Positions 2,899 to 29,885 of a stretch of 41,945 nucleotides of DNA are shown here, in pieces; within the stretch, counting starts at the first letter, position 1, and each line of letters opens with the position of its first letter. Location: positions 1 through 41,945 of the forward strand of contig CANJQU010000028.1 of assembly GCA_947476485.1 (NCBI GenBank). Direction: 5' to 3'. The position numbers and the translations under genes were made by a program. The stretch is from Chitinophagaceae bacterium. GTDB taxonomy: Bacteria; Bacteroidota; Bacteroidia; Chitinophagales; Chitinophagaceae. A model generated the notes under the pieces. The model saw only the letters and a program-made list of their open reading frames with translations. It did not search any database and had not been told where the DNA came from.

Positions 2899-3474
2899 TA
2901 TGCTCACGCCTTAGCCCTTTTTAGGCGAAGGAGACGTGTGTGGCCCATCTATTCTAGCAAAACAAGATTATAACCAAACCCTTCCATCCCATAACCAAAA
3001 GGTGTTGGGCCGTGTTATTTTGCTTGCTACCTTTGTACCGCAAAAGAGCATTTTTCATCTTCCTTGGAAGGCCTTAGCGTTTTTTCTTTGCTGCCTTTGT
3101 GGTTAACCTTTTTTCGCATTAAACAAAGCACAATGCAATGTGAGCAAGAAATGAGCGCTTACGCAAGTAAACGCGCAACGCGCTGAGCAAGAAATGAGCA
3201 ATGATTTTTTATTAGTTGCTTGATTATCAATAACAAGTTGTGCAACAATGTTTTTTTCGGGAGAGTGTGCAATTGTTAGAACGATATAGTCCGCGAAATC
3301 CGTAGATCCGATAAATCCGCGATTCAGAAGTGTGATAAGAGTGTGATATTAATAGCCTGTACTGAGCAGCGCCGAAGTATGATATTTTTCGGCCATAGTT
3401 CATTGATTACCAACAAAAACCTGCGCAAACTTTTTTTTGAAAGAAACTGTGATATTTTTCACCTAGGCATCAGT

Positions 3475-3522
3475 TGTCTGAATCAAGAAAATCTTTTAAT
3501 CAGGAAAATCAAGGTTCAGACA
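3475..3522. repeat. TGTCTGAA-type inverted repeat, copy 1
   Basis: TGTCTGAA (3475-3482) and TTCAGACA (3515-3522) bracket an A/T-rich interior with GAAAATC on both arms. The reverse complement of the right part matches 32921-32963 over about 40 bases with few differences, so this is a dispersed family. Confidence 0.6.
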
Positions 3523-3523
3523 C

Positions 3524-3635
3524 GATGGGTAATAATGGGAAATGCAAATAACTATTAATATCAGCCACCACAAAGGCTTTCCGGAGAATCCAATGCCCCA
3601 TTTGTGAACTTTTTTTTATTGGGGCATGGGGCATT
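3524..3635 (+). repeat. Dispersed ~80-bp repeat ending in a GGGGCAT hairpin, copy 1
   Basis: From GATGGGTAATAATGGGAAAT (3524-3543) through TTAATATCAGCCAC to AATGCCCCAT (3592-3601), the sequence matches the reverse complement of 22022-22099. Here the last block also forms a hairpin, AATGCCCCAT (3592-3601) with ATGGGGCATT (3626-3635). It is non-coding. Confidence 0.65.
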
Positions 3636-3766
3636 CTTAGAGAAAACCAGGCTCGGCACTACTTGGGGATATGAAAATATACCCGGATATTATAGGCTCT
3701 GCAGGAAAATATTTTCAGTAGAATGTTAAAATTGTTCATCCTGTCACGCAGCAGGCGGGCATGCAG

Positions 3767-3774
3767 TATATTTG
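3767..3774 (+). promoter_or_regulatory. Bacteroidota -7 box upstream of the DUF4294 gene
   Basis: TATATTTG matches the Bacteroidota primary-sigma -7 consensus TAnnTTTG, 25 bases before the ATG at 3800. No good TTG -33 element sits 17-20 bases upstream, so confidence is moderate. Confidence 0.45.
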
Positions 3775-3799
3775 GTACACATGTTGATGTACAGAGATC

Positions 3800-4375
3800 A
3801 TGAAAAGAACAGCATCAGTTATTATCCTTACTTTTCTTACCGGCGCTTCTTATGCCCAGAACACGGCAGACACAGTGAAAAGCGATACCGCCTATAGCGT
3901 CCTGCTCAACACTATAAAAGTGACCGCTAAGTGGCGCAGCGATGAAGACCGCTACCACTACAACCAGATGAAATTCTATGTAACAACCATACTGCCCTAC
4001 CTGAACGCAGGAACACAGTTGTTCTACGACATTAATGCCAAGGAAAATGAGCCCGGTATAAGCAGAAAAGAGTGTCGCCGGTACATTCATTCCAGGGAGG
4101 ATGAAATGCGCACACAATTTGAAGACAAGGTGAAGGCGCTCAATGTGACCCAGGCGGTGTTACTGGTGAAATTGATAACGCGTCAAACGAACATGAACAT
4201 CTATAACATGTTAACTGAATTCAAAAACCCGCTTACAGCCGTTAAATGGCAGGTGTGGGCACGCGTAAATGGTATAAACCTGGACAGGAAGTATGACCCC
4301 TCAAAAGAGCCTGATCTTGAGAATATTATGCAGGAACTTGGCTACCCGTTGCCTGATAGTTATGCCGTTAATTAA
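3800..4375 (+). CDS. DUF4294 family protein, secreted
   Basis: The 191-residue product has an N-terminal signal peptide (residues 1-19, MKRTASVIILTFLTGASYA then QN), indicating export to the periplasm or envelope. The body carries DUF4294 hallmarks: the D-x-Y-H-Y-NQMKFYVT-I-PY segment (~50-70), LNVTQAVLLVKLITRQT (~115-131), and a WARVNGINLDRKYDP...EPDLENIM ending. DUF4294 is a Bacteroidota-restricted family of unknown biochemical function. The gene stands alone, with its own likely -7 box, and is followed by a 110-bp gap. The repeated 'KLI-RQT' helix is diagnostic in my recollection of the family. Confidence 0.75.
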   Translation: MKRTASVIILTFLTGASYAQNTADTVKSDTAYSVLLNTIKVTAKWRSDEDRYHYNQMKFYVTTILPYLNAGTQLFYDINAKENEPGISRKECRRYIHSREDEMRTQFEDKVKALNVTQAVLLVKLITRQTNMNIYNMLTEFKNPLTAVKWQVWARVNGINLDRKYDPSKEPDLENIMQELGYPLPDSYAVN

Positions 4376-4924: not shown

Positions 4925-6562
4925 TTATTTTTTGATCTGGAATTTGAAGGTTTCTTTGCTGCCGTCAGTATCACGGAACACTACAAAGTAATTGCCTTCA
5001 GGTAAATAAGACAGGTCGCTCTCATAGTGGCTCAGGTTATTGATATCCTCATGGAGTATGCCCTGGCCATAGATGTTGTAAACATCCATCTTCATAACCA
5101 CAGGCTTGCCCCAGTCCACATTAAGCATACCGGTTGTCGGATTTGGATAAACCTTGATAGCGCCATGATTGATATCGTCAACGTCCAGCAGCGAAATATA
5201 CAGTGTATTTGAAGGTGCAGAATTACAGTTACCCGTATCCCTGATCGCATAATAGTAACCCAGCATCAGGGGGTGGAATGTCTGGCCTATGGCGCCCGGT
5301 ATGATGTTGCCGTTATAATACCACGTATATGTTCCGGAAGTATTAGCAACCAGCAGATTGCCGATAAGTGAGATAAGCGGCGCTACCGGGGTACTGTCGC
5401 GGATCATGATAACAGAAGTACTGTTAACTGTGTCATTGAAATAACAACCGCCGTCCGTAGTGTTCACCTGGAGGGTCATTATGTCGCCGTTGTTGAATAC
5501 ATGCGTAAACGTAGGAGAGGTTGTTGCGGTGGAAACGCCGTTCACAAGCCAGTTGAACTCCGGCGCTGTGCCAAAATCCATGTAGGTAGCCGTAAAGGTT
5601 ACCGGGGAATCGAGGCAGCCCGGATTAGCGCCATAGGTCAACAACACACTTACTGTAGGGTCCTGCAAAGGAATTACAGTCATCGTAATGATATTTGAAA
5701 CCGTTGTGTGGTTTACAACACATGGCTCGGGATCAGTGAGTATACAGTATACTTTATCCCCGTCGTGCAGGCTGTCTGTAATAAATATTGGCCCCACAGC
5801 GCTCGGGAAGCTGGAAGTATCCACATACCAGGCAATGGAATAACCTGCAAGCCCCGGTGCGTATACTATCGCAGTAAATGTATCGAGCGTTCCGAAGCAG
5901 ATCGGGTTACGGCTTGCGTAGATAGAGTCGGTAGCGGTCAGGGAATCATGAATGATCGGCACCTGGAAGGAGAACGCAGAATCCGTAGGAAAAGCACATG
6001 GTGAATTGGACACCAGCAGCAGTGACACCGTATCACCGGCATTGAAATGCCGTGTAATGGTAGCGCTGTCCGCACCGGCGATGGGCGAATTGTTGATCAT
6101 CCATTGATAGGTCGGGCTTGTACCGCCATTCACCGGATAGGCTGTAAATGTTAGTGGGGTAGCACCGCAACCCGGGTTACTTCCGCTCGTAAGAGAAATA
6201 AGCACCCGCGGTGGTATCGTATTGCTGCGATGAACAATGATCACGTTTGACTTTGCACTATCCAGCAGTCCGAGGTCATTGATGTATAATATCTCGCAAT
6301 ACACACTATCTCCGTCATTAAGCGCCGTGGTGTAAAACGTATCGATGATCACTCCGGTAAACACGTTGTTTGTATACCAGTGGTACTCAGTAGTTGAAAA
6401 AGTATCGTTGCTTTGCACGGCGGTAAAGGTGAGCTGAATACCCGGGCAAGTGGTGTCTGTTCCATAGGGAAGATAGATACTTACAGAATCTAAAACCTGC
6501 GCTCCGGCGGCACCATGAAGACCTAAACACAGCAAAAAGAAAAGAGTAAATTTACGTAGCAT
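4925..6562 (-). CDS. Ig-like repeat protein with T9SS C-terminal sorting domain
   Basis: The frame is open from 6631, but the start at 6562 gives a proper signal peptide (MLRKFTLFFLLCLGLHGAAGA, then QV) and a 545-residue protein. It contains four to five Ig-like repeats of about 85 residues. Each starts with a C-x-G/L-(5)-TFTA pattern and carries a W-x-(V/I)-N/D strand (YHWYTNN, YQWMINN, IAWYVD, FNWLVNG, YTWYYNG) and a late cysteine. The last ~85 residues are a type A sorting domain: IKVYPNPTTGML, then VYNIYGQGI, LPEGNYFVVF and the basic end FKFQIKK. Such proteins are exported by Sec, then by the type IX machinery, and anchored or released at the cell surface. The substrate or ligand is unknown; adhesion is plausible. 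Confidence 0.85.
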   Translation of the reverse strand: MLRKFTLFFLLCLGLHGAAGAQVLDSVSIYLPYGTDTTCPGIQLTFTAVQSNDTFSTTEYHWYTNNVFTGVIIDTFYTTALNDGDSVYCEILYINDLGLLDSAKSNVIIVHRSNTIPPRVLISLTSGSNPGCGATPLTFTAYPVNGGTSPTYQWMINNSPIAGADSATITRHFNAGDTVSLLLVSNSPCAFPTDSAFSFQVPIIHDSLTATDSIYASRNPICFGTLDTFTAIVYAPGLAGYSIAWYVDTSSFPSAVGPIFITDSLHDGDKVYCILTDPEPCVVNHTTVSNIITMTVIPLQDPTVSVLLTYGANPGCLDSPVTFTATYMDFGTAPEFNWLVNGVSTATTSPTFTHVFNNGDIMTLQVNTTDGGCYFNDTVNSTSVIMIRDSTPVAPLISLIGNLLVANTSGTYTWYYNGNIIPGAIGQTFHPLMLGYYYAIRDTGNCNSAPSNTLYISLLDVDDINHGAIKVYPNPTTGMLNVDWGKPVVMKMDVYNIYGQGILHEDINNLSHYESDLSYLPEGNYFVVFRDTDGSKETFKFQIKK

Positions 6563-6940
6563 AAATAAAATTTTAAGCCCCTCACCTATGTGAACGGATA
6601 GAATTAGTTTGTGTAAAAATAACATATTCATTGAATAATGTAAAAGATTTTAGCTTGATTTTCTTTTTAGTACCCGATCCTGTCTCGGCCATCAAATATT
6701 TACGAAATCAGCATATTATTCAGGGTCATAAAATAGCAACAAGATTGTTATCGGGACTTTGAACAATTGGTGGTGGTTTGTACCGAATTTAATTAAGAAT
6801 GTTATAAATTTACCCAAAAATGAATTTGACACCCTGTTATTCAGGATTCGATCCATTTATAATTTCAACTTAAATATTTTGATTGCGTTGCATATATAAC
6901 ATATATTCACGCTCAAATAACAAAATCAGAACGATTCTTT
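6563..6940. other. Divergent intergenic region
   Basis: This AT-rich 378-bp region lies between the leftward Ig-like cargo and the rightward histidine kinase, so it should hold promoters for both. I see only imperfect -7 boxes (for example TAAATTTA near 6808), no exact TAnnTTTG with a correctly spaced TTG, and no gene. Confidence 0.4.
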
Positions 6941-9001
6941 GTGCAAATAAGGACACTCATTTTTTTTATCTTATTGCTTTTTTTGAGTTCGTGCCATTAC
7001 GGAAGTGACCAGCTTTCTGTGAGCACACCTTTTTTTGACAGCGTTATTAAAAAGACAGATGCAATGTATGACACGGGCAATAAGACCGCAGCCCTTGCGA
7101 TGCTTATTTCTGCCCATGCAAATGCGAAGAAGTTATCGGTGATGGACGATCTGAACTATTATGCTTACTGTGGCGAGATTTACAAAAAAGATTTTAAAGA
7201 CTTCGACAAAAACATCGCCTATGCCGATAGCATGATACACGTGCTTGAAAAATGCAGGCGCAATAAGAAACTTCTGTCTAAGTATGTGCAGGCATATAAC
7301 ATGAAGGCGGATGCCTTATTTGCACGTGAATTGTACAATGAGTCGTATGACTATTATTACCGGGCAAAAACCATGGCAAAGGAAAATGACGATAGCTGCG
7401 CCATGAGCAAGTACAGCTATAGTCTGGGCATGGCGCTATACCGGCAGCAAAACTACCTTAACAGCGCAAACTATTTTATCGAATCGTATGAAGAGTCGGC
7501 GCATTGCAGCGATCTTTTCAGTTATTTCTACCACCGGCAGGAACTGCTTGATAACATTGGCTTGTGCTACTACAAGTGCCAGCGATATGACCGGGCAATG
7601 TCTTATTACGAAAAAGCGATAAAATACATTGACTCAAACTTCATGCGCTTTGATAAGCCCGCAAGCGTGTATCTGAGCGCGCGCGCCGTGGTGATCGGCA
7701 ATATGGCAGATGTGTTCATTGCACGAAAAAGCATGGACTCGGCACGAGTACTGCTGCAGAATAGCATTGATGTTAATTTGCAAAAAGGTTATGCAAACGA
7801 AGATGCACTGCTCACGCAGGTGAAGCTCGCCAACCTGTATTTCAGGACAGGGCACATTGGCGAGATGAAAGAAGTGCTGCAGTTGATACGTGCCGAACTG
7901 GACACCATCCCAAATAAAAATATTGCTTTGTCATGGAATAAGCTGATGTGGCAGTACCACGATCATGAACGTGATTCAGTAAAGGCATACAAGTACTATC
8001 TTACTTATACTGCACTAAATGACTCTTCGATCGCCAGGAATAAGAACCTGATGGCCTCTGATGTGAACGGCCGTATCGAAAACATAGAGCGTGAGTATAA
8101 GATAGACATCCTGAATAAGACAAGCCAGCAGGAAAAGATCTATATCTGGGTGCTGACGCTGGTTGCAGTAATGGCGCTTATCATTATTATCCTCGCGCTG
8201 AGAAACGTCATCCGGTCTCGGGAAAATGTTGTGCTCCTTAAGCGGCTTAACAACCAGGTAAATGAACAGAAAGACAAACTGGAGAAAGCAATAACCCAAC
8301 TGAACCAGAAAGAAAGAGACAAGACAAGAATATTGCGATCGGTGGCGCACGATGTAATGAATCCCATTGCTTCCATAATCGCGCTTGCAGATATACTGGA
8401 ACAGGATTCCGCCAGCTATTCTGAAGAGAACAGGGAGATCCTGAGCCTGATAAAGGAAGCATGCAAAAATTCGCTCAACTTAAGCAAGAACATACTGGAA
8501 GCGGCCATGGACATTGATGAGGGCAATATGGGGAAAGAGTGGGTAGACATTAAAAAACTGGTTTCCAATTGTGTTGAGCTGCTTAACTTCCGTGCTAATG
8601 CCAAGCATCAGCACATAAAAACCGCAATGGCCCAGGATGAGATACTGGCATTTGTGAACAAAGAGAAAATATGGCGGGTAATAAACAATCTTATCGCTAA
8701 CGCGATTAAGTTCAGTTATGAAAATTCAGAGATATTGGTCAGCCTGGATTTGAAAGGCGAAAAAGTACACATTGCTATAAAAGATACTGGTGTAGGTATA
8801 CCTGAGAAAAACCAGCCATTTGTATTTGATATGTTTACACAGGCTAAAAATCCGGGTACATCAGGTGAAGTACCTTACGGCCTGGGGTTGTCTATTTCGC
8901 TGCAGATAGCCCGGGCTCACCAGGGGGATATATGGTTTGATACGGCGGAAGGCAAGGGAACGACGTTCCATTTTGAATTTCCGACAAAAAGTGTAGCGTA
9001 A
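6941..9001 (+). CDS. Hybrid-topology sensor histidine kinase with periplasmic TPR domain
   Basis: The 686-residue product has, in order: a signal sequence (residues 1-18, ending in a lipobox-like LSSC), a periplasmic TPR solenoid (~40-380), one membrane helix (401-423), a coiled coil (425-463), a HisKA helix and an HATPase_c domain. In HisKA, His470 lies in RSVAHDVMNPI. HATPase motifs visible are the N-box (Asn583, Asn587 in INNLIANAIKFS), G1 (DTGVGI, 615-620) and G2 (YGLGLS, 646-651). All catalytic residues needed are present. It starts with GTG. Its likely partner is the REC protein 196 bases downstream. The TPRs probably sense a peptide or protein ligand in the periplasm (inference). Whether the LSSC cysteine is lipidated in a membrane-spanning protein is unclear. 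Confidence 0.9.
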   Translation: MQIRTLIFFILLLFLSSCHYGSDQLSVSTPFFDSVIKKTDAMYDTGNKTAALAMLISAHANAKKLSVMDDLNYYAYCGEIYKKDFKDFDKNIAYADSMIHVLEKCRRNKKLLSKYVQAYNMKADALFARELYNESYDYYYRAKTMAKENDDSCAMSKYSYSLGMALYRQQNYLNSANYFIESYEESAHCSDLFSYFYHRQELLDNIGLCYYKCQRYDRAMSYYEKAIKYIDSNFMRFDKPASVYLSARAVVIGNMADVFIARKSMDSARVLLQNSIDVNLQKGYANEDALLTQVKLANLYFRTGHIGEMKEVLQLIRAELDTIPNKNIALSWNKLMWQYHDHERDSVKAYKYYLTYTALNDSSIARNKNLMASDVNGRIENIEREYKIDILNKTSQQEKIYIWVLTLVAVMALIIIILALRNVIRSRENVVLLKRLNNQVNEQKDKLEKAITQLNQKERDKTRILRSVAHDVMNPIASIIALADILEQDSASYSEENREILSLIKEACKNSLNLSKNILEAAMDIDEGNMGKEWVDIKKLVSNCVELLNFRANAKHQHIKTAMAQDEILAFVNKEKIWRVINNLIANAIKFSYENSEILVSLDLKGEKVHIAIKDTGVGIPEKNQPFVFDMFTQAKNPGTSGEVPYGLGLSISLQIARAHQGDIWFDTAEGKGTTFHFEFPTKSVA

Positions 9002-9101
9002 CAGTTTTTTTAAAGCATTGAAAGTCATAATATTCCATATTATAAACATAATGTTTATTAGGTATGTAAGCTATTAATAAGTTAATGCATAGCTATTGTA
9101 G

Positions 9102-9109
9102 TATATTTG
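9102..9109 (+). promoter_or_regulatory. -7 box upstream of the REC/HEAT/GT operon
   Basis: TATATTTG matches TAnnTTTG, about 89 bases before the ATG at 9198, in the only gap (196 bp) inside the kinase-to-DUF4838 block. A GTTA about 18 bases upstream could serve as a weak -33. It suggests that the polysaccharide operon is transcribed separately from the kinase. Confidence 0.45.
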
Positions 9110-9197
9110 GAATTAAAAGCAGATATTTGTTACCCGATTTAGTAACTCATTTTTTATTCAGCCGGAAATCGGTATAGTTTTTATAGTACTTAATGCC

Positions 9198-9599
9198 ATG
9201 TCGAACATACTTGTAATTGAAGATGATGATATAATGCTCAAGGCCATCCGGAACATTCTTGGAAAGGACGGCTATACTGTTATCACCGCCAAAGACGGAA
9301 AGGAGGCTTTTGACCGCCTTGAAAACGATGACTATGACGTTGTGGTAACAGACCTGATGATGCCCTATGCAAACGGGCTTGAAGTGGTAAGCCGCCTAAG
9401 GGGCGATGAGACGAAACGAAACGTTGGCATTATTGTTATCTCATCAGTAGGTAATGAGGAAACCATCACCGAAGCCTTCAGGCTCGGCGCAGATGATTAT
9501 CTTAAAAAGCCCATAATGGCCGGCGAATTACTGATACGCATCAGGAAATTGCTTTCGAATAAGAACAGTGCATCTCAGCTTGTCACCAAAAAAAAATAG
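9198..9599 (+). CDS. Stand-alone response regulator receiver (REC) protein
   Basis: The 133-residue product is a single CheY-like receiver domain with no output domain. The acidic pocket is Asp8-Asp10, the phosphoacceptor is Asp52 (VVVTDLMMP), the switch Ser is 82/83 (VISSVG), and Lys104-Pro105 (LKKP) is the conserved cis-proline site. The Lys-rich C-terminal tail ends at 133. It is probably phosphorylated by the TPR kinase just upstream. With no DNA-binding domain, it must act through protein contact. The HEAT-repeat protein that starts nine bases after its stop is the obvious candidate partner (inference from synteny). Confidence 0.92.
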   Translation: MSNILVIEDDDIMLKAIRNILGKDGYTVITAKDGKEAFDRLENDDYDVVVTDLMMPYANGLEVVSRLRGDETKRNVGIIVISSVGNEETITEAFRLGADDYLKKPIMAGELLIRIRKLLSNKNSASQLVTKKK

Positions 9600-9608
9600 T
9601 ACAATCCC

Positions 9609-10763
9609 ATGTGGAAAGATCTGGCAGACCTCTTATTTCAGGCCTATGAGCAATACAGCCTCCTACCTCTTTTCATAGAAATAGCGCTGGCGTTCATCTT
9701 TATCGCTATTCTATCTACGCTTATTGCCTATAGCGCTATATTGTTTAAACGATACCGCGCGTATGTTTATGAGAAAAGACTGGCTTTTATAAGCCCTAAG
9801 ATAGAAGATATGATCACCGAGCAGGTGTTGCTGAATCCAAACCTGGGACAGGATATTCCACTTGAGAATATTGAATTCGACCCTGCTGCGCTCAATGACA
9901 AGATATACCGCAAGCCATTTGTGCGGCAGATGCTGATCGATACCCTGATACAATACCGCAAAAACTTCAGGGGTGAAGTAGGCGAATTACTCAGGAAAAT
10001 GTACCTGGATATGGGCCTGGACAAAGATTCATTTGCAAAAATGAAAACTTTGCGCTGGGAGCGAAAGATAAAGGCAGTTGTTGAACTAACACAGATGGAT
10101 ATTCCGATCTCGGACGTTACCATTCTGCCACTTACCAATAGCGGAAATTCCGCCCTTCGCGCGGCAGCCAGAAATGCCTACATCCAGCTTAGTAAGAATG
10201 AGCCGTTCAAGTTTTTCGACATTGCTACCGAGCCGCTGCTTCCCTGGGACCAGCTCGAAATGTTTAAGATAATCACGACAACGAAGGATATTGCCATTCC
10301 AAACTTTTCAAGATGGGTAAGCTATTCCCCAAATAAGAGTATCGTTTCCTTCTGCCTCCAGCTCATCGCCCACTACGATCAGCAGAGCGCAATACCTGCA
10401 GTTATGGACCTGCTGGCCAATAAAGATCACTACTTCAGAGCGAATGCCATTAATTGTCTTGGGAAACTGTCGGCAGAGGTGGCGGAAGACAAGCTTGTAA
10501 AAATATACAACAACCAGCCTCTGAATTGCCAGATCGAAATTTTAAAGGCGCTCGGGCGCATAGCATCGGGCAAACACCTGGAATTCCTGAAATCAGAGTT
10601 CCTGTATTCATCAAACTTTGATATCCGTATGAATGCATCCCGTTCTATCATTAAGCACAATACCCAGAATTCTCGCTTAATGGTAGAGGAACTGATGGAA
10701 ATGACACATGATGAAAACCAGCTAATTATTAAACACTGCCTGAACCCGCTAATTAAGTATTAA
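9609..10763 (+). CDS. Membrane-anchored HEAT-repeat protein
   Basis: The 384-residue product has one N-terminal membrane helix (~19-45, LFIEIALAFIFIAILSTLIAYSAILF). A cytoplasmic helical solenoid follows. HEAT-type repeats are clearest at ~190-384, e.g. SALRAAARNAYIQL, SAIPAVMDLLANKDHYFRANAINCLGKL, CQIEILKALGRIASGKHLEFL and FDIRMNASRSIIKHN. The stop overlaps the next start (TAATG at 10761-10765), so translation is probably coupled to the first glycosyltransferase. HEAT solenoids are scaffolds with no catalysis. Here it most likely links the REC protein to the synthase at the inner membrane (inference). No other assignment fits better. Confidence 0.85.
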   Translation: MWKDLADLLFQAYEQYSLLPLFIEIALAFIFIAILSTLIAYSAILFKRYRAYVYEKRLAFISPKIEDMITEQVLLNPNLGQDIPLENIEFDPAALNDKIYRKPFVRQMLIDTLIQYRKNFRGEVGELLRKMYLDMGLDKDSFAKMKTLRWERKIKAVVELTQMDIPISDVTILPLTNSGNSALRAAARNAYIQLSKNEPFKFFDIATEPLLPWDQLEMFKIITTTKDIAIPNFSRWVSYSPNKSIVSFCLQLIAHYDQQSAIPAVMDLLANKDHYFRANAINCLGKLSAEVAEDKLVKIYNNQPLNCQIEILKALGRIASGKHLEFLKSEFLYSSNFDIRMNASRSIIKHNTQNSRLMVEELMEMTHDENQLIIKHCLNPLIKY

Positions 10764-12220
10764 TGATCAAAACTATACTAGAGCATTTACAGGTAATTTT
10801 TGAAAAAACCGTATACATATACGGTGTGGTGCTGCTTATTATATACGCCTGCCTTGCCCTGATGTCGTATTACAACGTCAGGAGGTTTCTGAAAAAAGAA
10901 AGTTATACCGATTATAAAGTAATAGTAGGTTCTGAACTGGCGCCGGGTATCTCAGTTATCGCTCCTGCATTCAATGAGGGCCTTACCATCATCAGCAATG
11001 TGAGATCACTGCTCACGTTCGACTATCCCAAATACGAGGTTATTATTATCAACGATGGTAGTACCGATGATACACTGGAAAAAGTCGTCAAAGAATTTTC
11101 GCTGGTAAAAGTTGATTTTGCATACGACATAAAGATCCAGTCGAAACCAATACGAGGCATATACAAATCAACTGACGATGCCTATGCAAAGCTTGTGGTG
11201 GTGGACAAAGAGAACGGCAAGTCGAAGGCGGATGCTACGAATGCCGGCATGAACGTTTCTTCATTCCCCTACTTCCTTTGCACTGATGTGGACTGTATCC
11301 TGCACGAGCAGACCCTGCAGAAGCTGATCAGGCCGATAATGGAAGAGGAGAACCACCGTGTGATAGCTACAGGAGCTACCCTGAGGATGGCAAATTCCTG
11401 TGAGATCGACAAAGGGGTTATCATCAGAATAAAGGCGCCAAGACCATTGCTTGCCCGTTTCCAGGAACTGGAATACATACGCTCGTTTGTGTTAGGGAAA
11501 ATGGGCTGGAGCTATATCAATTGTGTACCGAACGTATCCGGTGGTCTCGGGCTGTTTGATAAAGAAATAGCCATTAAAGCCGGCGGATATGACCCGGCAT
11601 CATTTGGCGAGGATATGGAGCTGATGATGCGCATGAACCGTTATGTGCATGACAATAAGATCAAGGCAGCCATACGTTACATACCTGTTACGCTCTGCTG
11701 GACGGAAGGTCCGACTTCGCTCAAAGTATTCATGCGTCAGCGTACAAGATGGGGCCGTGGCTTGTTCCAGTTAATGGTCACGCACAGGAAGATGCTGCTC
11801 AATCCCCGCTACGGGCGGACAGGAATGATCATGTTCCCATACAACTTCCTTTTTGAGTTGCTGGCGCCGTTCATTGAGAGTATCGGCCTCATTTATTACA
11901 TTCTACTGGCCATTTTTGGCCTGGTTAACTGGCCATATGCGGTTATCCTGCTGATCTTCGTTTATTCCTATGCAATTATGATATCAACGCTTGCCGTGCT
12001 GTGGGATCAAATGACCGTACAGTACTACAAGACATGGACGGATGTGGCAAGAATAGCATCCATGGTTTTTATTGAAATGATCATATACCATCCTTTGATA
12101 GTCATCTTCGCATTAAGAGGATACTTTTTCCATATTGCCGGCAGAAAACACAGTTGGGGAAATATGCAAAGGACAGGTTTCAAGAGTGCATCGGCTAGTG
12201 CAAACACTGCCGCGACATAA
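10763..12220 (+). CDS. Processive-type family 2 glycosyltransferase, copy 1
   Basis: The 485-residue inner-membrane protein has one N-terminal helix (~15-37), a cytosolic GT-A domain and about four C-terminal helices (~355-455). Synthase motifs are complete: Asp98 (INDGS), the DxD at Asp175-Val-Asp177, Asp284 in FGEDMEL and Gln326-x-x-Arg-Trp (QRTRW). This is the signature of PgaC/BcsA/hyaluronan-synthase-like enzymes, which polymerise a sugar nucleotide while moving the chain across the inner membrane. No PilZ domain is present, so it is not BcsA. The sugar is not predictable. It overlaps the HEAT gene by one base and lies 17 bases before a paralogue, suggesting a two-enzyme complex. Alternative: a non-processive lipid-linked transferase. 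Confidence 0.9.
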   Translation: MIKTILEHLQVIFEKTVYIYGVVLLIIYACLALMSYYNVRRFLKKESYTDYKVIVGSELAPGISVIAPAFNEGLTIISNVRSLLTFDYPKYEVIIINDGSTDDTLEKVVKEFSLVKVDFAYDIKIQSKPIRGIYKSTDDAYAKLVVVDKENGKSKADATNAGMNVSSFPYFLCTDVDCILHEQTLQKLIRPIMEEENHRVIATGATLRMANSCEIDKGVIIRIKAPRPLLARFQELEYIRSFVLGKMGWSYINCVPNVSGGLGLFDKEIAIKAGGYDPASFGEDMELMMRMNRYVHDNKIKAAIRYIPVTLCWTEGPTSLKVFMRQRTRWGRGLFQLMVTHRKMLLNPRYGRTGMIMFPYNFLFELLAPFIESIGLIYYILLAIFGLVNWPYAVILLIFVYSYAIMISTLAVLWDQMTVQYYKTWTDVARIASMVFIEMIIYHPLIVIFALRGYFFHIAGRKHSWGNMQRTGFKSASASANTAAT

Positions 12221-12237
12221 TTATATATTTAAATGCA

Positions 12238-13785
12238 ATGAGGGCGATACTGGATTTTTTTAATAAGGGGGTGTTTTGGGAAAACATTGGTGCCTACTAC
12301 CAATCGGGTGTATTCGTGTATGGAACTACCCTCCTTATGGCCTATGCGTCGCTTGCGATCATGTCACTGATCTCGATCAGGAGATACATGAAAAAGAACG
12401 CATCGATCGATTATGGTGTTATTGTTGAATCTCCTCTTGCACCAGGCATTTCCGTGATCGCTCCGGCTTATAACGAAGGCGTGACGATCATTTCCAACGT
12501 GCGGTCGCTGCTTACATTTAACTACCCGAAGTTTGAAGTTATCATTATTAACGATGGCAGTACGGACGATACGCTGGAAAAACTGATCAGGGAGTTTGAC
12601 CTGGTGCACGTTGAGTACGCCTTCATTGAAAAGCTGAACAGTGAGCCGATAAAAAGGATATTCAAATCTACCAACCGGGCTTATGACAAGCTGATTGTAG
12701 TAGACAAAATAAATGGTAAGAGTAAGGCCGATGCCTCTAATGCAGGTATCAACATCTCCTCTTACGAGTACTTCCTATGTACAGACGTGGATTGTATCCT
12801 CGATAAAGACACGCTTATCAAGCTCATCAAGCCATTCATGGATGAGGAGACCACCAAGATAAAAGAATTCGGGACACCATGCCCTGAATGCGGATATGTT
12901 CACGTTAAGGAGGATTTCAGGAAAGTAATAGCTACGGGAGCTACACTGCGAATGGTGAACTCGTGCGATGTGGACGAAGGATTGATGATCCGCGTGCGCC
13001 CGCCGGTGAAGTTTTTGCCGCGCTTCCAGGAAATGGAGTATATCCGGGCTTTCGTGCTCGGTAAGATGGGCTGGGACCTTATCAACGCCGTTCCGAACGT
13101 ATCGGGAGGACTAGGTATGTTCGATAAAGAAATTGCGGTGAAAGCGGGCGGCTATGATTCCAAGTCTTTTGGCGAGGATATGGACCTCATCACCCGTATG
13201 TGCTGCCTCATGAAAGACAATAAGCGGAAGTACTCGGTAAGATATGTGCCGATTACACTATGCTGGACAGAGGGACCTACAACATTGAAGGTATTTGGCC
13301 GCCAGCGCAGCCGTTGGGGCAGGGGTATGGCCCAGATCATGAGCATTCACCGCAAAGTGATCTTCAATCCACGCTACGGCAGATTGGGGCTCATTGTTTT
13401 CCCATACAACTTCCTGTTTGAGCTGCTCGCGCCGCTGATTGAGTTTACAGGTCTTCTTTTTTATATTTACCTGATATTGACCAGCCAGATCAACTGGCCG
13501 TTTGCGATCATTTTGCTGGTATTTGTGTATACTTATTCGGTGATGATCACTACGCTGGCTCTTTTATGGGACCAGATCACATTTAAGTACTATAAAACCT
13601 GGGGAGAGACCATTGGATTGTGTTTGATGGCATTTATTGAGCCATTTGTCTATCACCCCCTGATCATGTTTTTTGCCCTTAAGGGTTACATTAATTTTAT
13701 CACAGGGCGCAAGCACGTGTGGGGAAATATGCAACGGCAGGGATTTGGAGGGCAAAAACCGAAAAATGCAGTTAAAGCAGGCTAA
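12238..13785 (+). CDS. Processive-type family 2 glycosyltransferase, copy 2, with CxxC insert
   Basis: The 515-residue paralogue of the preceding enzyme has the same topology: one N-terminal helix (~25-45), a GT-A domain and C-terminal helices (~385-485). Motifs are Asp106 (INDGS), DxD at 183-185, Asp314 (FGEDMDL) and Gln356-x-x-Arg-Trp (QRSRW), all intact, so both copies look active. The two are very similar across the GT core and both end in RKH-WGNMQR. Copy 2 has an extra ~25-residue insert at ~203-228 after the DxD, containing CPECG (Cys215, Cys218), a knuckle that could bind metal or pair in a dimer. Together they may make an alternating two-sugar polymer, or form a heterodimer (inference). 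Confidence 0.9.
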   Translation: MRAILDFFNKGVFWENIGAYYQSGVFVYGTTLLMAYASLAIMSLISIRRYMKKNASIDYGVIVESPLAPGISVIAPAYNEGVTIISNVRSLLTFNYPKFEVIIINDGSTDDTLEKLIREFDLVHVEYAFIEKLNSEPIKRIFKSTNRAYDKLIVVDKINGKSKADASNAGINISSYEYFLCTDVDCILDKDTLIKLIKPFMDEETTKIKEFGTPCPECGYVHVKEDFRKVIATGATLRMVNSCDVDEGLMIRVRPPVKFLPRFQEMEYIRAFVLGKMGWDLINAVPNVSGGLGMFDKEIAVKAGGYDSKSFGEDMDLITRMCCLMKDNKRKYSVRYVPITLCWTEGPTTLKVFGRQRSRWGRGMAQIMSIHRKVIFNPRYGRLGLIVFPYNFLFELLAPLIEFTGLLFYIYLILTSQINWPFAIILLVFVYTYSVMITTLALLWDQITFKYYKTWGETIGLCLMAFIEPFVYHPLIMFFALKGYINFITGRKHVWGNMQRQGFGGQKPKNAVKAG

Positions 13786-13810
13786 ATTAACCATTAAAAT
13801 ATAACAAAAA

Positions 13811-16717
13811 ATGAGATCAACCATGAGGTTGGTGATTTTGGCAACGTTTATCTTTTTGAGTCCTTGTGCAAACGCGCAGTGGCTGAAAATGATAGAGTCA
13901 TCTGATAATTTGTATAAAGACGCAAAAAGAGAGATCGACTTAAAACACTACCAGAAGGCCATTAATCTATGCAACAAAGCGAAAGATATATCGCCGCATA
14001 ACCTGGACATTCATTTGTTGTTGGGGCGGGCATTTTCGCTTGCAGGCAAGATAGACAGCGCGCGTTATGAGTTGAACTATGTAATTGAGAAGAACCCCAA
14101 GTACCGCGATGGTTATATTTACCTCATAAACCTGGAAGCAACAGCGTGTAACTACCTGCAGGCCCTGGAATACGCAGACCTTGGCCTGAAATATTTCCCA
14201 CTGGACCGCGATATCCTTTTAAAGAAACTGGACATTTACCTGAAAGAGGGCGACTGGATGGAAGCCAATAAGATGGCGGATTTCATGTATGAGCGGTTCT
14301 CTTCCGATGCTTACATAAGAAGTGTATATCTCGACTTTAAGCTGTCTCTTGCCCGACAGTATTCGCACCGAGGCTACATTGAGATAGCGAAACGGGCCTA
14401 TGAAGCCGTGCTGGAACAAGACCCAATGAACAAGGAGGCGCTTTCTTCTGTTTTTGCACTGGATGTAAGATCAGGTAATTATGAAAGTTCCCTTGACTAC
14501 GTGAACCGCGCGCTGCAGGCAACGCCAAACTCATATGAGTTCCTGAAAAAGAAGATAAGCATACTTGATGCAATGTCGCGCTATGTGGAAGCAATACAGG
14601 TTGTGGAAAAACTGGCTAAGCTATACCGCAATGACCCGGAAATCCATAAACTGAACATATACATTCGCATGGAAGCAGGCCGGTTCTTTTTGAACATGGA
14701 CCCTTATACCCAATTCCAGGCGGTGCTCGAAAAAGATCCCGGGAATACCGAAGCGCTTAACTATGTTATCAACATTGCCTATAGCCGCGGCTTATTGCCT
14801 GAAGCGCTTCGCTTTGTAAATATGGGCCTGAAAAACTCACCTAATGATCGTGAACTGCTGAAGAAAAAACTCGGTATACTGGAGTCTCTGAGGAACTATG
14901 GCCAGGCGGCTATGATCGCAGAAAAGCTCTATAAAGACAATCGCTCAGAAGCGTTGAAGCAAAATTTCATTGAACTGAAGTTGCAAAGTGCAAAGGCGTT
15001 CATGAACGATATGGCCTACGACAGCGCTGCTAAAGCCTTGAAAGTCGTGCTTTATTACGATCATAACAACGCGACTGCCCTCAACTACCTGATCAATACG
15101 TACCTCGCTGAAAAGAGATATGACGATGCGTTGCAGGTGATAGACCAGGCTCTGGAGCACAAACCTGACGATGAACAACTGCTGTTCAAAAAGGCAGGTA
15201 TACTGGAAACAAGCCAGCGTTACGAGGATGCAGCGGCAATATCAGGCAGGTTGTTACAAAAGCACCATGACAACAGGCAGTACCTTGTGAGTCTTGTAGA
15301 GCAATCCCTCGCAGCAGGAAGACAGTCCATGCAGTATGATGACTATTACAATACGCTGAAAGTATTGAAAGAAGTACTGGACGCCCAACCTGACAATATT
15401 GACGCCCTTAATTACATGATCAATATCCAGATGGCGCTGAAACAATATCCCGCAGCATTACAGTTTGTTGATCAGGCATTGCGTTATTATCCCGAGTCGA
15501 CTGATTTCCTGTTTAAGAAATCTGTAGTGAATGCTGAGGCAAGGAACTACCAGGCTGCATATGCTATTTCCGGGCAATTGTACAGTAACTTCCCCTATAA
15601 CGTTCGTTTTAAAACAGCGTATGTGGATCAGTTAGTTGGTTCCGGAAGGCAGTACCTCGAAGCTAATAATCCTGACAGTGCACTTATGGAGTTCAGGAAA
15701 GCGCTGGCAGAAGCGCCGGCAGATACAGTACCACTGTATTATACCATAAATCTCCTTGTACAGACAAACCAATATGACAGTGCATTGACCTTAATAGATC
15801 ACGGGCGCTTCTTTTATCCGTCTAACCCTTACTTCCTGAGCAAAAGAGCTGTTATTCTTGAGAACCAGAAAAGATGGCATGAGGCCTGGTTATCGGAAGA
15901 TACCCTGCTGAAGATGAATCCATTTGATGCGAAAGTGTCTGATTATGCCCAATTCCTGTATAGCCATACGCTTAAGAACCAAATAGGACTATTTTACCTG
16001 CATTCAGTTTTAACGGATTCAAGCGGCAAGCGCAATGTAACAAGTATCGCCACGGCACAGTATACCCGCAAATGGGACGGAGGTTCGTTTACAGCGCGTG
16101 TTAACTATGCCGGCAGGTTCAACGGAACCGGGTACTCCTTTGAAGCTGAGGCCAATATTAACCACAAGAAGAACTGGTATTCATATGGTCTTGTCGGATA
16201 CTCTCCTACCCCTGATCAATTTCCGGATCTTCGGCTTGGCTACTCCCTCTTTCGGAGCTTTAAGCACGATTATACCGGAGAGTTGGGTATAAGGTACATG
16301 CACATATCTGTTTATAATGGCGCCACTTACATATCGCCTGTGATCGGTATTGCCAAAGAGCTGAGTGACTTTTACCTGAGTCTTCGTGGCTCTCCAATAT
16401 TCGTAAACTATACCGGAATTCCTGATAAACAATATTTTGCACTGACATTTAATTCGCGTTATTACCTGAGAGATAACCGGACAGAATTTTTCAGTGTTCT
16501 GATGGGTTATGGTAACTCGCCTGATGACATTGTCAGGGACTTCAGGGGCGTTGGTTTAAGAGCGTATAATACGGTAACAGTAGGCGCAGGTTACCAGCGG
16601 CAGCTATTCTACCGCACAACTATTATGGTTAACGCAAGCTGGTCCAATCTCCAGGCAGACAGAAATTATTTCCTGAACCAATACAATATTTTTGTGGGAC
16701 TGTTGCGGAGGTTTTAA
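13811..16717 (+). CDS. Large TPR protein with C-terminal YaiO-type outer-membrane beta-barrel
   Basis: The 968-residue product starts with a signal peptide (MRSTMRLVILATFIFLSPCANA, then QW). A long TPR solenoid (~30-715) carries repeats such as YDDALQVIDQALEHKPDDEQLLFKKAGILE. The final ~250 residues form a beta-barrel of alternating aromatic strands ending in Phe968 (FVGLLRRF), the usual outer-membrane insertion signal. The barrel resembles the YaiO outer-membrane domain. Periplasmic TPR plus outer-membrane barrel is the architecture of PgaA/AlgK-AlgE-type exporters. The likely job is guiding the polymer through the periplasm and out of the cell. It sits 25 bases after the second glycosyltransferase, and its start is compatible with the same transcript. 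Confidence 0.88.
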   Translation: MRSTMRLVILATFIFLSPCANAQWLKMIESSDNLYKDAKREIDLKHYQKAINLCNKAKDISPHNLDIHLLLGRAFSLAGKIDSARYELNYVIEKNPKYRDGYIYLINLEATACNYLQALEYADLGLKYFPLDRDILLKKLDIYLKEGDWMEANKMADFMYERFSSDAYIRSVYLDFKLSLARQYSHRGYIEIAKRAYEAVLEQDPMNKEALSSVFALDVRSGNYESSLDYVNRALQATPNSYEFLKKKISILDAMSRYVEAIQVVEKLAKLYRNDPEIHKLNIYIRMEAGRFFLNMDPYTQFQAVLEKDPGNTEALNYVINIAYSRGLLPEALRFVNMGLKNSPNDRELLKKKLGILESLRNYGQAAMIAEKLYKDNRSEALKQNFIELKLQSAKAFMNDMAYDSAAKALKVVLYYDHNNATALNYLINTYLAEKRYDDALQVIDQALEHKPDDEQLLFKKAGILETSQRYEDAAAISGRLLQKHHDNRQYLVSLVEQSLAAGRQSMQYDDYYNTLKVLKEVLDAQPDNIDALNYMINIQMALKQYPAALQFVDQALRYYPESTDFLFKKSVVNAEARNYQAAYAISGQLYSNFPYNVRFKTAYVDQLVGSGRQYLEANNPDSALMEFRKALAEAPADTVPLYYTINLLVQTNQYDSALTLIDHGRFFYPSNPYFLSKRAVILENQKRWHEAWLSEDTLLKMNPFDAKVSDYAQFLYSHTLKNQIGLFYLHSVLTDSSGKRNVTSIATAQYTRKWDGGSFTARVNYAGRFNGTGYSFEAEANINHKKNWYSYGLVGYSPTPDQFPDLRLGYSLFRSFKHDYTGELGIRYMHISVYNGATYISPVIGIAKELSDFYLSLRGSPIFVNYTGIPDKQYFALTFNSRYYLRDNRTEFFSVLMGYGNSPDDIVRDFRGVGLRAYNTVTVGAGYQRQLFYRTTIMVNASWSNLQADRNYFLNQYNIFVGLLRRF

Positions 16718-16729
16718 AGGATAATTGAA

Positions 16730-18991
16730 ATGGCTAAAATATGGCTTTACGGGTGCATGTATGCGCTTGTTACACTCAGCTCCTGCCGTGGCAACGCGCA
16801 GGAGCTTGTTTTAGCAGACAACAACAACTCTGAATACAGGATCATCATTCCGGCAGACGCCTCGAAACAAGAAAAGCATGCTGCCACTGTCTTACAGGAC
16901 TACGTTCAACGTGTCTCGGGAGTGCAGTTAACAGTAGTCAGCGAAGGAACCAAACCAGCCACACCCGCCATTTATATTGGCCATACGTCTAAAGAAAAAA
17001 AAATAGTCCCTGGTAAGATACCTGCTGAAGGCAGCCTGGTAATTACGGACGGCAAGGATATTGTATTTTATGGAGGCAGTGGTAAGGGCCTTGTGTATGG
17101 CGTTTACAGTTTTATAGAAAAATACCTCCATTGCAAAAAGATAAGCAATGAACCTGCCATAGTGCCCGTCTCTAAAAAAATAATGATCCCGGGGCATTTG
17201 CGCGAAGAAAGCAAGCCCCAGTTTCAATACCGCGAGGTATACTATCCTGCCAGTCACGATGCCGAATATGTGGAGTGGAATCAACTGCAGCAGTTTGAGG
17301 ATCTGTGGGGGCTATGGGGCCACTCGTACGAAAAACTGGTTCCTGCAAAAACTTACTTTAAGGCACATCCTGAATATTATGCACTGGTGAAAGGAGTGCG
17401 CCAACCTACGCAGCTATGTCTTGCCAATGAGGATGTTTACAAAATTGTAGTTGATGGCTTAAAAACAAGGATGGCGGCCAACCCGGATGCGATCTACTGG
17501 TCAATAAGCCCAAATGATGACATTGGCTACTGCGAATGTGATAAATGTAAAGCGGCCAATGATGAGCAAGGCAGTCCATCAGGCTCATTGATACAATTCG
17601 TGAATCGTGTGGCGGCGGTGTTCCCGGATAAAACGATCACAACACTGGCTTATGGCTTTACACACCGTGCGCCTAAAAATTTAAAGCCTGCATCCAATGT
17701 CTATATTTTCCTGAGCGACATAGATGCATACCGTGATAAACCACTATCAACGGAAGGCTCGGCTGGTGCATTCCGAAATGATCTTAAGTCATGGGGAGTC
17801 CTTACACCCAATTTGTTTGTGTGGGATTATATCACTGAGTTTACTAACTATCTTGCTCCCTTCCCAAACTTCCCTACACTCAGGCCCAATATCCAGTTCT
17901 TTAAGGATAATGGCGTAAAAGGGATATTTGCGCAGGGAAGCGGGGATACATACGGCGAATGGGCCGAACTGCGCAGCTATGTCACCGCAAAACTATTGCA
18001 GAACCCAAATGCCGACGACAAACAACTTACGTCGGATTTTCTTACTGCACATTACGGTGCTGCCGCCAACTACATGCAGCAATACATTGACCTGCTACAG
18101 GAAAAAATGCTGGCTTCTCATCGCAAGCTTGATATCTACGGCAACCCGGTCAATGAGTGGAATTCTTACCTCACACCGGAATTCCTCGATCAGTACAGTA
18201 CTATCTTCGATAAAGCAGATGCAGCCGTGGAAACCAATGCTGTATTACTTGACAGGATGGTGAGCGCCAGGTTGCCATTGGAATATACCGTACTACAGCA
18301 GTCCCGCTTTTATGGCATTGAAAAATTTGGGGTGTTTGTAAAAGAACGCACCGGGGAATGGGTGGTGAAGCCGAAACTTCCTGAAAAGGTCAGTCGTTTT
18401 GTGGCTAACTGTAAGAAGGCAGGTGTTACCGAACTTTCTGAAGGAGGGCTGACACCCGACCAATACCAGGCCGAATGGGATGCTATTTTCAAGGCCGGGG
18501 TAACGCCAACCAAAGCACTCGATGCTGTGGTTACTTTCCAGTATCCATTTGCTCCGGACTACCCGGCAAAAGGCAACCGCACTCTTGTGGATGGCACACC
18601 TGGTTATAACGATTTTAGCTACAACTGGCTTTGCTTTTACGCAGTGCCTATGATTGCTACTCTAGACCTTGGCAGGGTTCAGGCAGTGAGTACCATAAAG
18701 ATGCACTTCCTCGATGATCCGCGACACTGGATATTCTACCCGGAAAAGATAATGGTCGAGGTGTCTGCTGATGGTATGAATTACCGCTCAATTACAGCCG
18801 TAAGTAACCCTGCTCCGGAAGAGCATTACGACCTTTCATTAAAAGAGTTTGTTGCTCAAAATGCTTTGCAAAAGCCGGAGCAGGTAAGGTATATCCGTGT
18901 TACTGCTAATAACCTGTCCGCATTACCGGAATGGCGGAGGCGTGAGAATAAGAAGCCAATGATCGCCTGCGATGAGATCTATGTGCAGTAA
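16730..18991 (+). CDS. DUF4838 lipoprotein, candidate polysaccharide-acting glycosidase
   Basis: The 753-residue protein has a lipoprotein signal (lipobox LSSC, Cys19). An N-terminal domain (~30-145) resembles the non-catalytic domain found before family 20 and alpha-glucuronidase catalytic barrels (GKDIVFYGGSGKGLVYGVYSFIEKYL). DUF4838 follows (~150-440), with WGLWGHSYEKLVP, SISPNDDIGYCECDKCKA and the long FVWDYITEFTNYLAPFPNFPTLRPN stretch. The C-terminal ~150 residues resemble a discoidin (F5/8C) carbohydrate-binding domain. DUF4838 lies in the TIM-barrel glycosidase superfamily, but its substrate is unproven. It starts 12 bases after the exporter, which suggests it trims or modifies the exported polymer, as PgaB or PelA hydrolase domains do (inference). 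Confidence 0.85.
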   Translation: MAKIWLYGCMYALVTLSSCRGNAQELVLADNNNSEYRIIIPADASKQEKHAATVLQDYVQRVSGVQLTVVSEGTKPATPAIYIGHTSKEKKIVPGKIPAEGSLVITDGKDIVFYGGSGKGLVYGVYSFIEKYLHCKKISNEPAIVPVSKKIMIPGHLREESKPQFQYREVYYPASHDAEYVEWNQLQQFEDLWGLWGHSYEKLVPAKTYFKAHPEYYALVKGVRQPTQLCLANEDVYKIVVDGLKTRMAANPDAIYWSISPNDDIGYCECDKCKAANDEQGSPSGSLIQFVNRVAAVFPDKTITTLAYGFTHRAPKNLKPASNVYIFLSDIDAYRDKPLSTEGSAGAFRNDLKSWGVLTPNLFVWDYITEFTNYLAPFPNFPTLRPNIQFFKDNGVKGIFAQGSGDTYGEWAELRSYVTAKLLQNPNADDKQLTSDFLTAHYGAAANYMQQYIDLLQEKMLASHRKLDIYGNPVNEWNSYLTPEFLDQYSTIFDKADAAVETNAVLLDRMVSARLPLEYTVLQQSRFYGIEKFGVFVKERTGEWVVKPKLPEKVSRFVANCKKAGVTELSEGGLTPDQYQAEWDAIFKAGVTPTKALDAVVTFQYPFAPDYPAKGNRTLVDGTPGYNDFSYNWLCFYAVPMIATLDLGRVQAVSTIKMHFLDDPRHWIFYPEKIMVEVSADGMNYRSITAVSNPAPEEHYDLSLKEFVAQNALQKPEQVRYIRVTANNLSALPEWRRRENKKPMIACDEIYVQ

Positions 18992-29653: not shown

Positions 29654-29885
29654 GTTTGAAAATTTGGTGTTAATTATTGCTCTGTTTTTAACAAAAAAAA
29701 CCGGTGGCACACCCTTTTTGGGGTATACACACAAAATTCGTACGTTAAAGATAGGATTTTTATCCTAAAATTAACTTTTCAGCAATCTTTATTAAAAAAT
29801 ATTAACCAGTGGAAAGAAGTGGAATTCCATTAATAGCCAACCGCTAATAAATGCATGTTCTGCGCGCTTATTCCATGATCCTGTA

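Follow-up and report, generated by a model that had tools for sequence, protein, structure and literature searches.

How is a polysaccharide synthase controlled in a bacterium in whose genome the usual input from cyclic di-GMP (c-di-GMP) cannot be found? The question is raised by seven genes at positions 6,941 to 18,991 of contig CANJQU010000028.1, from the draft genome of a Chitinophagaceae bacterium (assembly GCA_947476485.1; 4.58 Mb, 99% complete). We analysed positions 1 to 41,945 of this contig, number 28 of the genome, and refer to that whole stretch as the window. The genes encode a histidine kinase (HK), a stand-alone REC protein, a HEAT protein, two family 2 glycosyltransferases (GT2a and GT2b), a TPR protein ending in a YaiO-type barrel, and a DUF4838 protein. 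On balance, we think it probable that they form a phosphorelay-controlled, synthase-dependent polysaccharide machine, in which the paired GT2s would work as a hetero-oligomer, the TPR/YaiO protein would export the chain and the DUF4838 protein would trim it. The synthase-exporter part of this reading is well supported by the sequence comparisons described here.

All seven open reading frames (ORFs) run in one direction, where the original prediction had placed them, and the gaps that it gave from the REC gene onward (9, -1, 17, 25 and 12 bases) are confirmed. The genes from REC to DUF4838 are thus closely packed; the HK gene ends 196 bases before REC and may be a separate unit. The features are as follows.

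6941..9001, + strand: TPR sensor histidine kinase (HK) with a lipobox-like N-terminus; 686 aa; Pfam TPR, HisKA and HATPase_c
9198..9599, + strand: stand-alone REC protein; 133 aa; Response_reg 101.8 bits, output domain not found with Pfam
9609..10763, + strand: HEAT protein; 384 aa; Pfam HEAT_2 in a single stretch, 240-302
10763..12220, + strand: GT2a, processive-type synthase, first of the tandem pair; 485 aa; Glycos_transf_2; catalytic motifs intact
12238..13785, + strand: GT2b, processive-type synthase, second copy; 515 aa; Glycos_transf_2; catalytic motifs intact
12844..12912, + strand: GT2b-specific insertion, residues about 203-225, with C215-x2-C218-x3-H222, from the alignment of GT2a and GT2b
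13811..16717, + strand: predicted periplasmic TPR scaffold with C-terminal YaiO-family outer-membrane barrel (predicted exporter); 968 aa; TPRs, PF19413 and TIGR04390
16730..18991, + strand: DUF4838 protein, LSSC lipobox-like; 753 aa; PF16126

Synthases, exporter and DUF4838 protein

Both GT2s had been taken for processive-type enzymes, and the comparisons agree with this assignment. The 12 motif positions that we checked (N105-D106, D183xD185, E313-D314 and Q356R-x-R359W360) are invariant in 107 of 107 aligned GT2s, comprising 35 GT2a, 38 GT2b and 34 single synthases. These counts, like the tree described below, cover GT2s of 440-560 aa, which leaves outside fragments and the 599-aa protein of locus L066; the motif counts also exclude L069, L092, L120 and a third GT2 of L080. 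When a GT2 profile was compared with four E. coli synthases, PgaC scored 104 bits, YaiP 40 and BcsA 25, and NfrB gave no match. Hydropathy places one transmembrane (TM) segment at the N-terminus and three at the C-terminus of each protein. By family, motifs and TM segments, both GT2s are predicted to be inner-membrane polysaccharide synthases. The pair as such stands in the window; elsewhere GT2a proved to be optional. The third GT2 of L080 (5974-7530), which lies between the usual two, is 43% identical to GT2a and sits on a very long branch.

The GT2s might instead be non-processive and make a glycolipid or a lipid-linked oligosaccharide, with the barrel serving something else. Matches to solved structures are in keeping with this, in that 34 of 41 are best in the N-terminal GT-A stretch, many of these being non-processive enzymes, and a QxxRW-type motif also occurs in ceramide glucosyltransferase. 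The other seven matches, however, are best in the second catalytic half and are all to cellulose or hyaluronan synthases, including BcsA. Together with the PgaC score, the three C-terminal TM segments and the conserved TPR/barrel partner, they make this alternative improbable.

The 968-aa protein combines TPRs and a YaiO barrel domain, both recognised by profiles, and belongs to the YaiO family at 91.5 bits to PF19413 (cut-off 23.9) and 54.1 bits to TIGR04390 (cut-off 32). The barrel assignment of the original prediction therefore stands at the level of family profiles, although BLAST gave no significant match to the YaiO protein of E. coli. A C-terminal phenylalanine, typical of outer-membrane barrels, ends 33 of 34 aligned TPR/YaiO sequences. 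In PNAG export, a TPR scaffold reportedly binds the polymer and may direct it towards the porin (PMC9384988).

Three loci from two close genomes (L062, L177 and L179, of which L177 repeats L062) have both synthases and, in the 1.2-1.5 kb seen downstream, no YaiO gene; an opposite-strand ORF follows. In one Chitinophaga pinensis assembly (L075) the gene for YaiO and that for DUF4838 show up as two ORFs apiece, perhaps through sequencing errors or decay.

The last protein of the cluster is a clear member of the DUF4838 family (PF16126, 324.9 bits; cut-off 26.6), and a lipobox-like stretch is found in 18 of 39 relatives, the window protein included. The DUF4838 profile matches the C-terminal domain of beta-hexosaminidase 6q63 (whole-sequence E 8e-31), and weaker matches cover the N-terminal parts of alpha-glucuronidases and of the O-GlcNAcase NagJ; we take these structures to represent glycoside hydrolase families 20, 67, 115 and 84. 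Five acidic residues (D263, D366, E571, D681 and E749) are invariant in 39 of 39 sequences, and the first three are candidates for catalysis. A periplasmic or outer-membrane lipoprotein with glycosidase activity is thus the probable identity of this protein. From these profile matches and the kinship to PgaC, our guess is a polymer of hexosamine or uronic acid.

The proposed set of a synthase, a TPR/YaiO barrel and a probable periplasmic carbohydrate enzyme finds support in these assignments, and it invites comparison with known systems. PgaABCD of E. coli is alike in that PgaC is the nearest of the four E. coli synthases, TPRs and an outer-membrane barrel share one protein, a periplasmic carbohydrate enzyme is present there and probable here, and a further gene adjoins that of the synthase (pgaD there, the HEAT gene here). 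It differs in having c-di-GMP control and the PgaB deacetylase/hydrolase, where the window apparently has REC-HEAT and DUF4838, and the window barrel is of the YaiO family. That the locus is itself a divergent poly-N-acetylglucosamine (PNAG, Pga) system is the least credible of the alternatives, and highly improbable. TIGR03937 (PgaC_IcaA) is the top NCBIfam match of both GT2s, but at 107.0 and 113.9 bits they reach about a quarter of its 422.3-bit cut-off; the PgaA profile scores 49.5 bits on the 968-aa protein, with its best stretch in the TPRs, against a cut-off of 366.65; and neither PgaD nor the deacetylase domains that PgaB would bring to such an operon have a match in the seven proteins. 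The lack of a deacetylase, already part of the original prediction, holds for the cluster, which has no PF01522 match, but the genome has seven such matches elsewhere.

The E. coli yaiP-yaiX-yaiO locus likewise encodes a GT2 (YaiP) and a YaiO barrel within 4 kb, and its YaiO, the namesake of the family, scores 182.4 bits to TIGR04390. In contrast to the window protein, E. coli YaiO (257 aa) has no TPR match; the E. coli locus lacks HEAT and REC genes and includes the acyltransferase gene yaiX, which is broken by an insertion sequence in K-12, and YaiP is more distant than PgaC, at 40 bits. BcsABZC and NfrAB follow the same logic of a synthase plus a TPR/outer-membrane exporter. However, the CelA profile scores 23.3 and 42.9 bits on the two GT2s against a cut-off of 699.1, the window's genome has no PilZ match, and NfrB was not matched by the GT2 profile. 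We rejected assignment of the locus to Pga, Bcs or Nfr on the NCBIfam scores and on the GT2 profile search of the E. coli synthases.

Conservation of the cluster and its control

Gene runs were counted in 79 loci, taken from the top 80 of 578 relatives ranked by GT2 similarity; as many of the genomes are close kin, the counts are not independent. Named genomes among them include Chitinophaga, Flavipsychrobacter, Olivibacter, Pedobacter, Mucilaginibacter, Flavobacterium, Galbibacter, Bacteroides and Rufibacter. There are 77 GT2 runs, five of which start at a contig end, leaving 72 with upstream sequence; L085 and L114 have no GT2 run, longer opposite-strand ORFs having been picked instead. A HEAT gene lies directly 5' of the GT2 run in 70 of the 72; the exceptions are L113 and L055, the latter with a truncated GT2a at the end of its contig. 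The HEAT-GT2 gap is between -28 and +12 in 59 of these 70 (an approximate figure, as the start was set at the first start codon), which suggests translational coupling. REC is directly 5' of HEAT in 51 of 70 runs, YaiO directly 3' of the GT2 run in 59 of 74, and DUF4838 within the next four genes in 49 of 74. The DUF4838 protein, one of the proposed parts, is not universal.

The order REC-HEAT-GT2(-GT2)-TPR/YaiO-DUF4838 does recur outside the host genome, as had been asked of it: it is the same in three other genera (L033, L034 and L035), and in the window's own family the cluster is also found in Chitinophaga (G168; C. tropicalis, L071). In most of the more distant loci HEAT-GT2 is kept, and REC and a YaiO gene of shorter length lie nearby in varying arrangements; the HEAT-GT2-TPR core extends to Bacteroides (L116 and L121), Chitinophaga and Flavobacterium. 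With HEAT as bait in a phylum sample, a GT2 gene followed HEAT in 27 of the 29 loci that were read, which are fewer than the HEAT matches obtained; the other two (L138 and L147) end inside a long HEAT ORF. HEAT matches were found in 23 of 198 genomes of the window's order, from which 20 wide regions were then read, and, at 1e-15, in 56 of 392 genomes of the phylum. Within the host genome the HEAT match is single at E 0.001, and no close GT2 relative exists besides the two cluster copies. The HEAT-GT2 core is real and recurrent by these comparisons, though scattered. No description of the REC-HEAT-GT2-YaiO cluster was found in the open-access literature, a weak negative; on DUF4838 these searches brought up a single paper, PMC9870897. 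One record that carries the cluster is titled Beijerinckiaceae (L072/L195, G698); the same GT2b occurs in a genome of the window's own family, and the record is probably a misbinned or mislabelled metagenome-assembled genome.

One account of synthase-dependent exopolysaccharide systems names four parts, among them an inner-membrane synthase, a domain or co-polymerase that binds c-di-GMP, and a periplasmic enzyme that modifies the polysaccharide (PMC7112194). Neither such a domain nor a recognised co-polymerase was found here. The original prediction had noted that the usual c-di-GMP input is missing from the cluster, and this extends to the whole host genome: across the host and 19 relatives, GGDEF and PilZ each matched in 0 of 20 genomes, while the same searches matched in 8 and 5, respectively, of 14 control genomes. 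GGDEF is found in 189 of the 392 genomes of the phylum sample, and in 0 of 47 HEAT-positive genomes of the window's class, a cross-reading that assumes one shared set of 392 genomes, those without a match being partly listed. Since the genomes of the window's class that carry HEAT have no GGDEF match, control of the cluster should differ there from that of the known systems, and REC and the membrane HEAT protein probably replace c-di-GMP control.

The REC protein retains its active-site residues: the phospho-acceptor D52 is kept in 34 of 35 aligned sequences and K104 in 35 of 35. Hydropathy gives the HEAT protein one N-terminal TM segment, followed by a stretch rich in lysine and arginine; by the positive-inside rule the HEAT repeats would face the cytosol, where REC is, and the HEAT domain is probably cytosolic. 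We propose this protein as a candidate co-polymerase or receiver-docking subunit, comparable in place to PgaD, and REC as a plausible switch of it.

The TPR kinase, originally listed as the first of the seven linked genes, is not a conserved member: close homologues (46-78%) precede REC in near relatives only (L053, L061 and L068). Other kinases, mostly longer and of hybrid size, stand there in L111, L117, L122, L039 and L042, a divergent kinase gene adjoins REC in many Chitinophaga loci, and 31 of 60 loci have a kinase-like gene somewhere in the span. With the kinase at this place varying among loci, we ruled out the window's HK as part of the conserved core; it is peripheral, and a candidate input. 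Its separation from the other genes may extend to transcription: TATATTTG at window positions 9102-9109, about 90 bases 5' of the REC start, resembles what we take to be the Bacteroidota -7 element, TAnnTTTG, and is a possible promoter for REC onward. Scans for sigma-70-type promoters and terminators gave about as many hits in the window as in shuffled sequence (25 against a mean of 26.1, and 14 against a mean of 12.0).

If the synthase-exporter core is right, REC might still act elsewhere, as a co-transcribed general phosphorelay shuttle that works through a distant transcription factor and not post-translationally on HEAT. The varying kinase partner fits such a role, and several further observations weigh against the phosphorelay reading as a whole. 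The Bacteroides loci L116 and L121, which have HEAT-GT2-TPR-DUF4838, have no REC match, so REC cannot be essential everywhere; REC is not directly 5' of HEAT in 19 of 70 runs, although in at least three of these (L058, L078 and L095) it was overlooked in ORF calling; of the HEAT-positive genomes outside the window's class, six of nine have GGDEF, which limits the c-di-GMP-free statement to that class; and the system is scattered, with 336 of 392 phylum genomes having no HEAT match at 1e-15. On the other side, with a tblastn check included, 58 of the 60 loci that reach 15 kb have a REC domain nearby, a raw count uncorrected for the background of REC genes; these loci span several families, REC mostly touches HEAT, and in at least 51 of 60 it is a stand-alone, output-less protein of no more than 160 aa. 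We regard the shuttle role as rather unlikely, and prefer REC acting on the HEAT subunit.

Tandem duplication and the C-x2-C-x3-H insertion

In a tree of 111 GT2s, first copies form one clade (35 rows, Shimodaira-Hasegawa-like approximate likelihood ratio test [SH-aLRT] 97) and second copies another (44 rows, SH-aLRT 85, a modest value; 88/42 in a second tree with L097). Because first and second copies fall into separate clades, the simplest reading is that GT2a and GT2b arose from one old tandem duplication. The two are told apart by the insertion, which follows the DxD motif and precedes the next conserved strand: it carries Cys215, Cys218 and His222 (window numbering) in 38 of 38 GT2b, and 35 of 35 GT2a have no corresponding residues.

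The motif also follows the number of synthases: all 34 loci that have two or three synthases carry it, and none of the 36 single-synthase loci does. In a family search of 30 loci, 20 had both partner and motif, seven had neither, and three had the motif without a visible partner. A contig end truncates L189, one of the three; L192 does have GT2a (in G629), which ORF calling had missed; and L193 (in G152) is a true exception. Eight single-synthase genomes from this search gave one GT2 match each at 1e-60, so that in these drafts (92-100% complete) GT2a does not seem merely to have relocated.

A tree from which the insertion columns had been removed was used to place the single-synthase descendants. 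The motif is absent from the group X183/L063/L065/X184/X185 (support 99/98), from L067/L068/X186 (100/100, and with two-synthase loci at 98/93) and from X182, beside L064 (99/97); the basal X193 (G152) keeps it. These placements point to one gain of the motif and four losses of GT2a, three of them accompanied by loss of the motif. GT2b is the copy retained where a single synthase remains in this clade. We considered that such genes might be recombination hybrids of the two copies and rejected this, as mean windowed identity favours GT2b; near-ties occur around the insertion (columns 200-239) in most and, for L033, at columns 40-79.

Among the 211 GT2b positions with at least 95% conservation, only six (G212, P214, C215, E217, C218 and H222) differ in four or more of the six single-synthase descendants, and each of them falls within the insertion. 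Like scans of the neighbours, counting positions changed in at least two thirds of single-synthase loci, gave 2 of 99 for HEAT, 0 of 27 for REC, 3 of 38 for YaiO (785, 791 and 811, near each other) and 1 of 92 for DUF4838, with four single-synthase loci only for the last two. In the usual order of GT-A elements, as we take it, the loop would link a helix with the strand that comes after it, at the pole away from the active site, a position that suits contact over catalysis. That the insertion tracks the presence of GT2a leads us to predict a hetero-oligomeric synthase, and the C-x2-C-x3-H pattern may mark a metal (zinc) site.

The motif might have no role in pairing, being a redox or metal sensor or a drifting loop whose loss with GT2a amounts to a few events of shared ancestry. 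The association indeed comes down to one gain and four losses, one of which kept the motif, and other observations count against pairing. Of the 36 single-synthase loci, 30 lie outside the duplicated clade, where the motif was probably never present, and only six inside; G152 (L033/L193) keeps the motif with a single synthase and no GT2a elsewhere in its genome. The G152 GT2b has serine at position 322, where 35 of 38 GT2b have cysteine, and L067 and L068 keep Cys322 though the motif is lost, so that Cys322 as a fourth ligand is a guess. On the other hand, the retention of both cysteines and the histidine in 38 of 38 GT2b over deep divergence is not explained by drift, and the neighbour scans show few changes. 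We therefore hold a role apart from pairing to be a tentative alternative, possible though not favoured, and keep to the reading in which the insertion holds or tunes the pair.

Contacts between different isoforms of plant cellulose synthase (CesA) depend on an insertion in the catalytic domain (PMC12077881). The likeness to GT2b is one of analogy only: both cases have paralogous processive GT2s with a catalytic-domain insertion. They differ in that the plant class-specific region is long and proposed to be disordered, whereas the GT2b loop is a short C-x2-C-x3-H present in one of the two isoforms.

A proposed mechanism and its implications

Taken together, the comparisons suggest the following course. 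The stand-alone REC would be phosphorylated by the neighbouring kinase or by another, and would then dock on a membrane subunit, at its cytosolic HEAT domain; this subunit, made together with the GT2s, would take the part of the PilZ domains or PgaD in c-di-GMP systems. GT2a and GT2b would act as a hetero-oligomer, which the C-x2-C-x3-H loop of GT2b would hold together or tune, and would polymerise a sugar, perhaps a hexosamine, while pushing the chain across the inner membrane. The TPR protein may lead the growing polymer to the YaiO-type barrel that it carries itself, and trimming or release of the polymer may fall to the DUF4838 enzyme. The absence of a nucleotide-sugar gene from the window cluster sits uneasily with this scheme.

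Distant branches vary around the core. A sulfatase-fold gene (PF00884) is next to or fused with GT2 at L036:10928-12982, L038:5800-9375 and L123:11411-13453, and in these branches a protein of about 390 aa beside YaiO has no Pfam match. A CotH kinase gene (PF08757) lies between HEAT and YaiO at L051:3496-4917. The Mucilaginibacter locus L098 has an actin-like protein (PF17989) between REC and HEAT (2989-4005) and, between YaiO and DUF4838 (9548-11980), an NDP-sugar epimerase fused to a class-V aminotransferase. Taken as a whole, this suggests a shared core whose tailoring genes can be swapped, and the epimerase-aminotransferase fusion is a lead to the sugar of the polymer. ORFs resembling those of L098 also occur in a Sphingobacterium locus (L099).

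Elsewhere in the window, on the - strand, positions 23390-29734 and 4925-6631 encode long repetitive Ig-like proteins of 2114 and 568 aa, whose C-terminal ends look to us like type IX secretion sorting domains.

More broadly, and with some reserve, the cluster may represent a Bacteroidota class of synthases gated by receiver phosphorylation through a membrane HEAT subunit, one branch of which has become an obligate paralogue pair joined by a metal-binding loop, in parallel to CesA; we hold this as a possibility well short of an expectation. The class recurs in 56 of 392 phylum genomes, and in the window's class its carriers have no GGDEF match, which makes REC and HEAT the obvious candidates for control. 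It also offers a natural experiment on the duplication of a synthase, in which a three-residue signature follows the partner enzyme with one exception, and this dependence of the GT2b motif on GT2a is the most testable new point. The polymer itself may be a recurrent, uncharacterised surface glycan.

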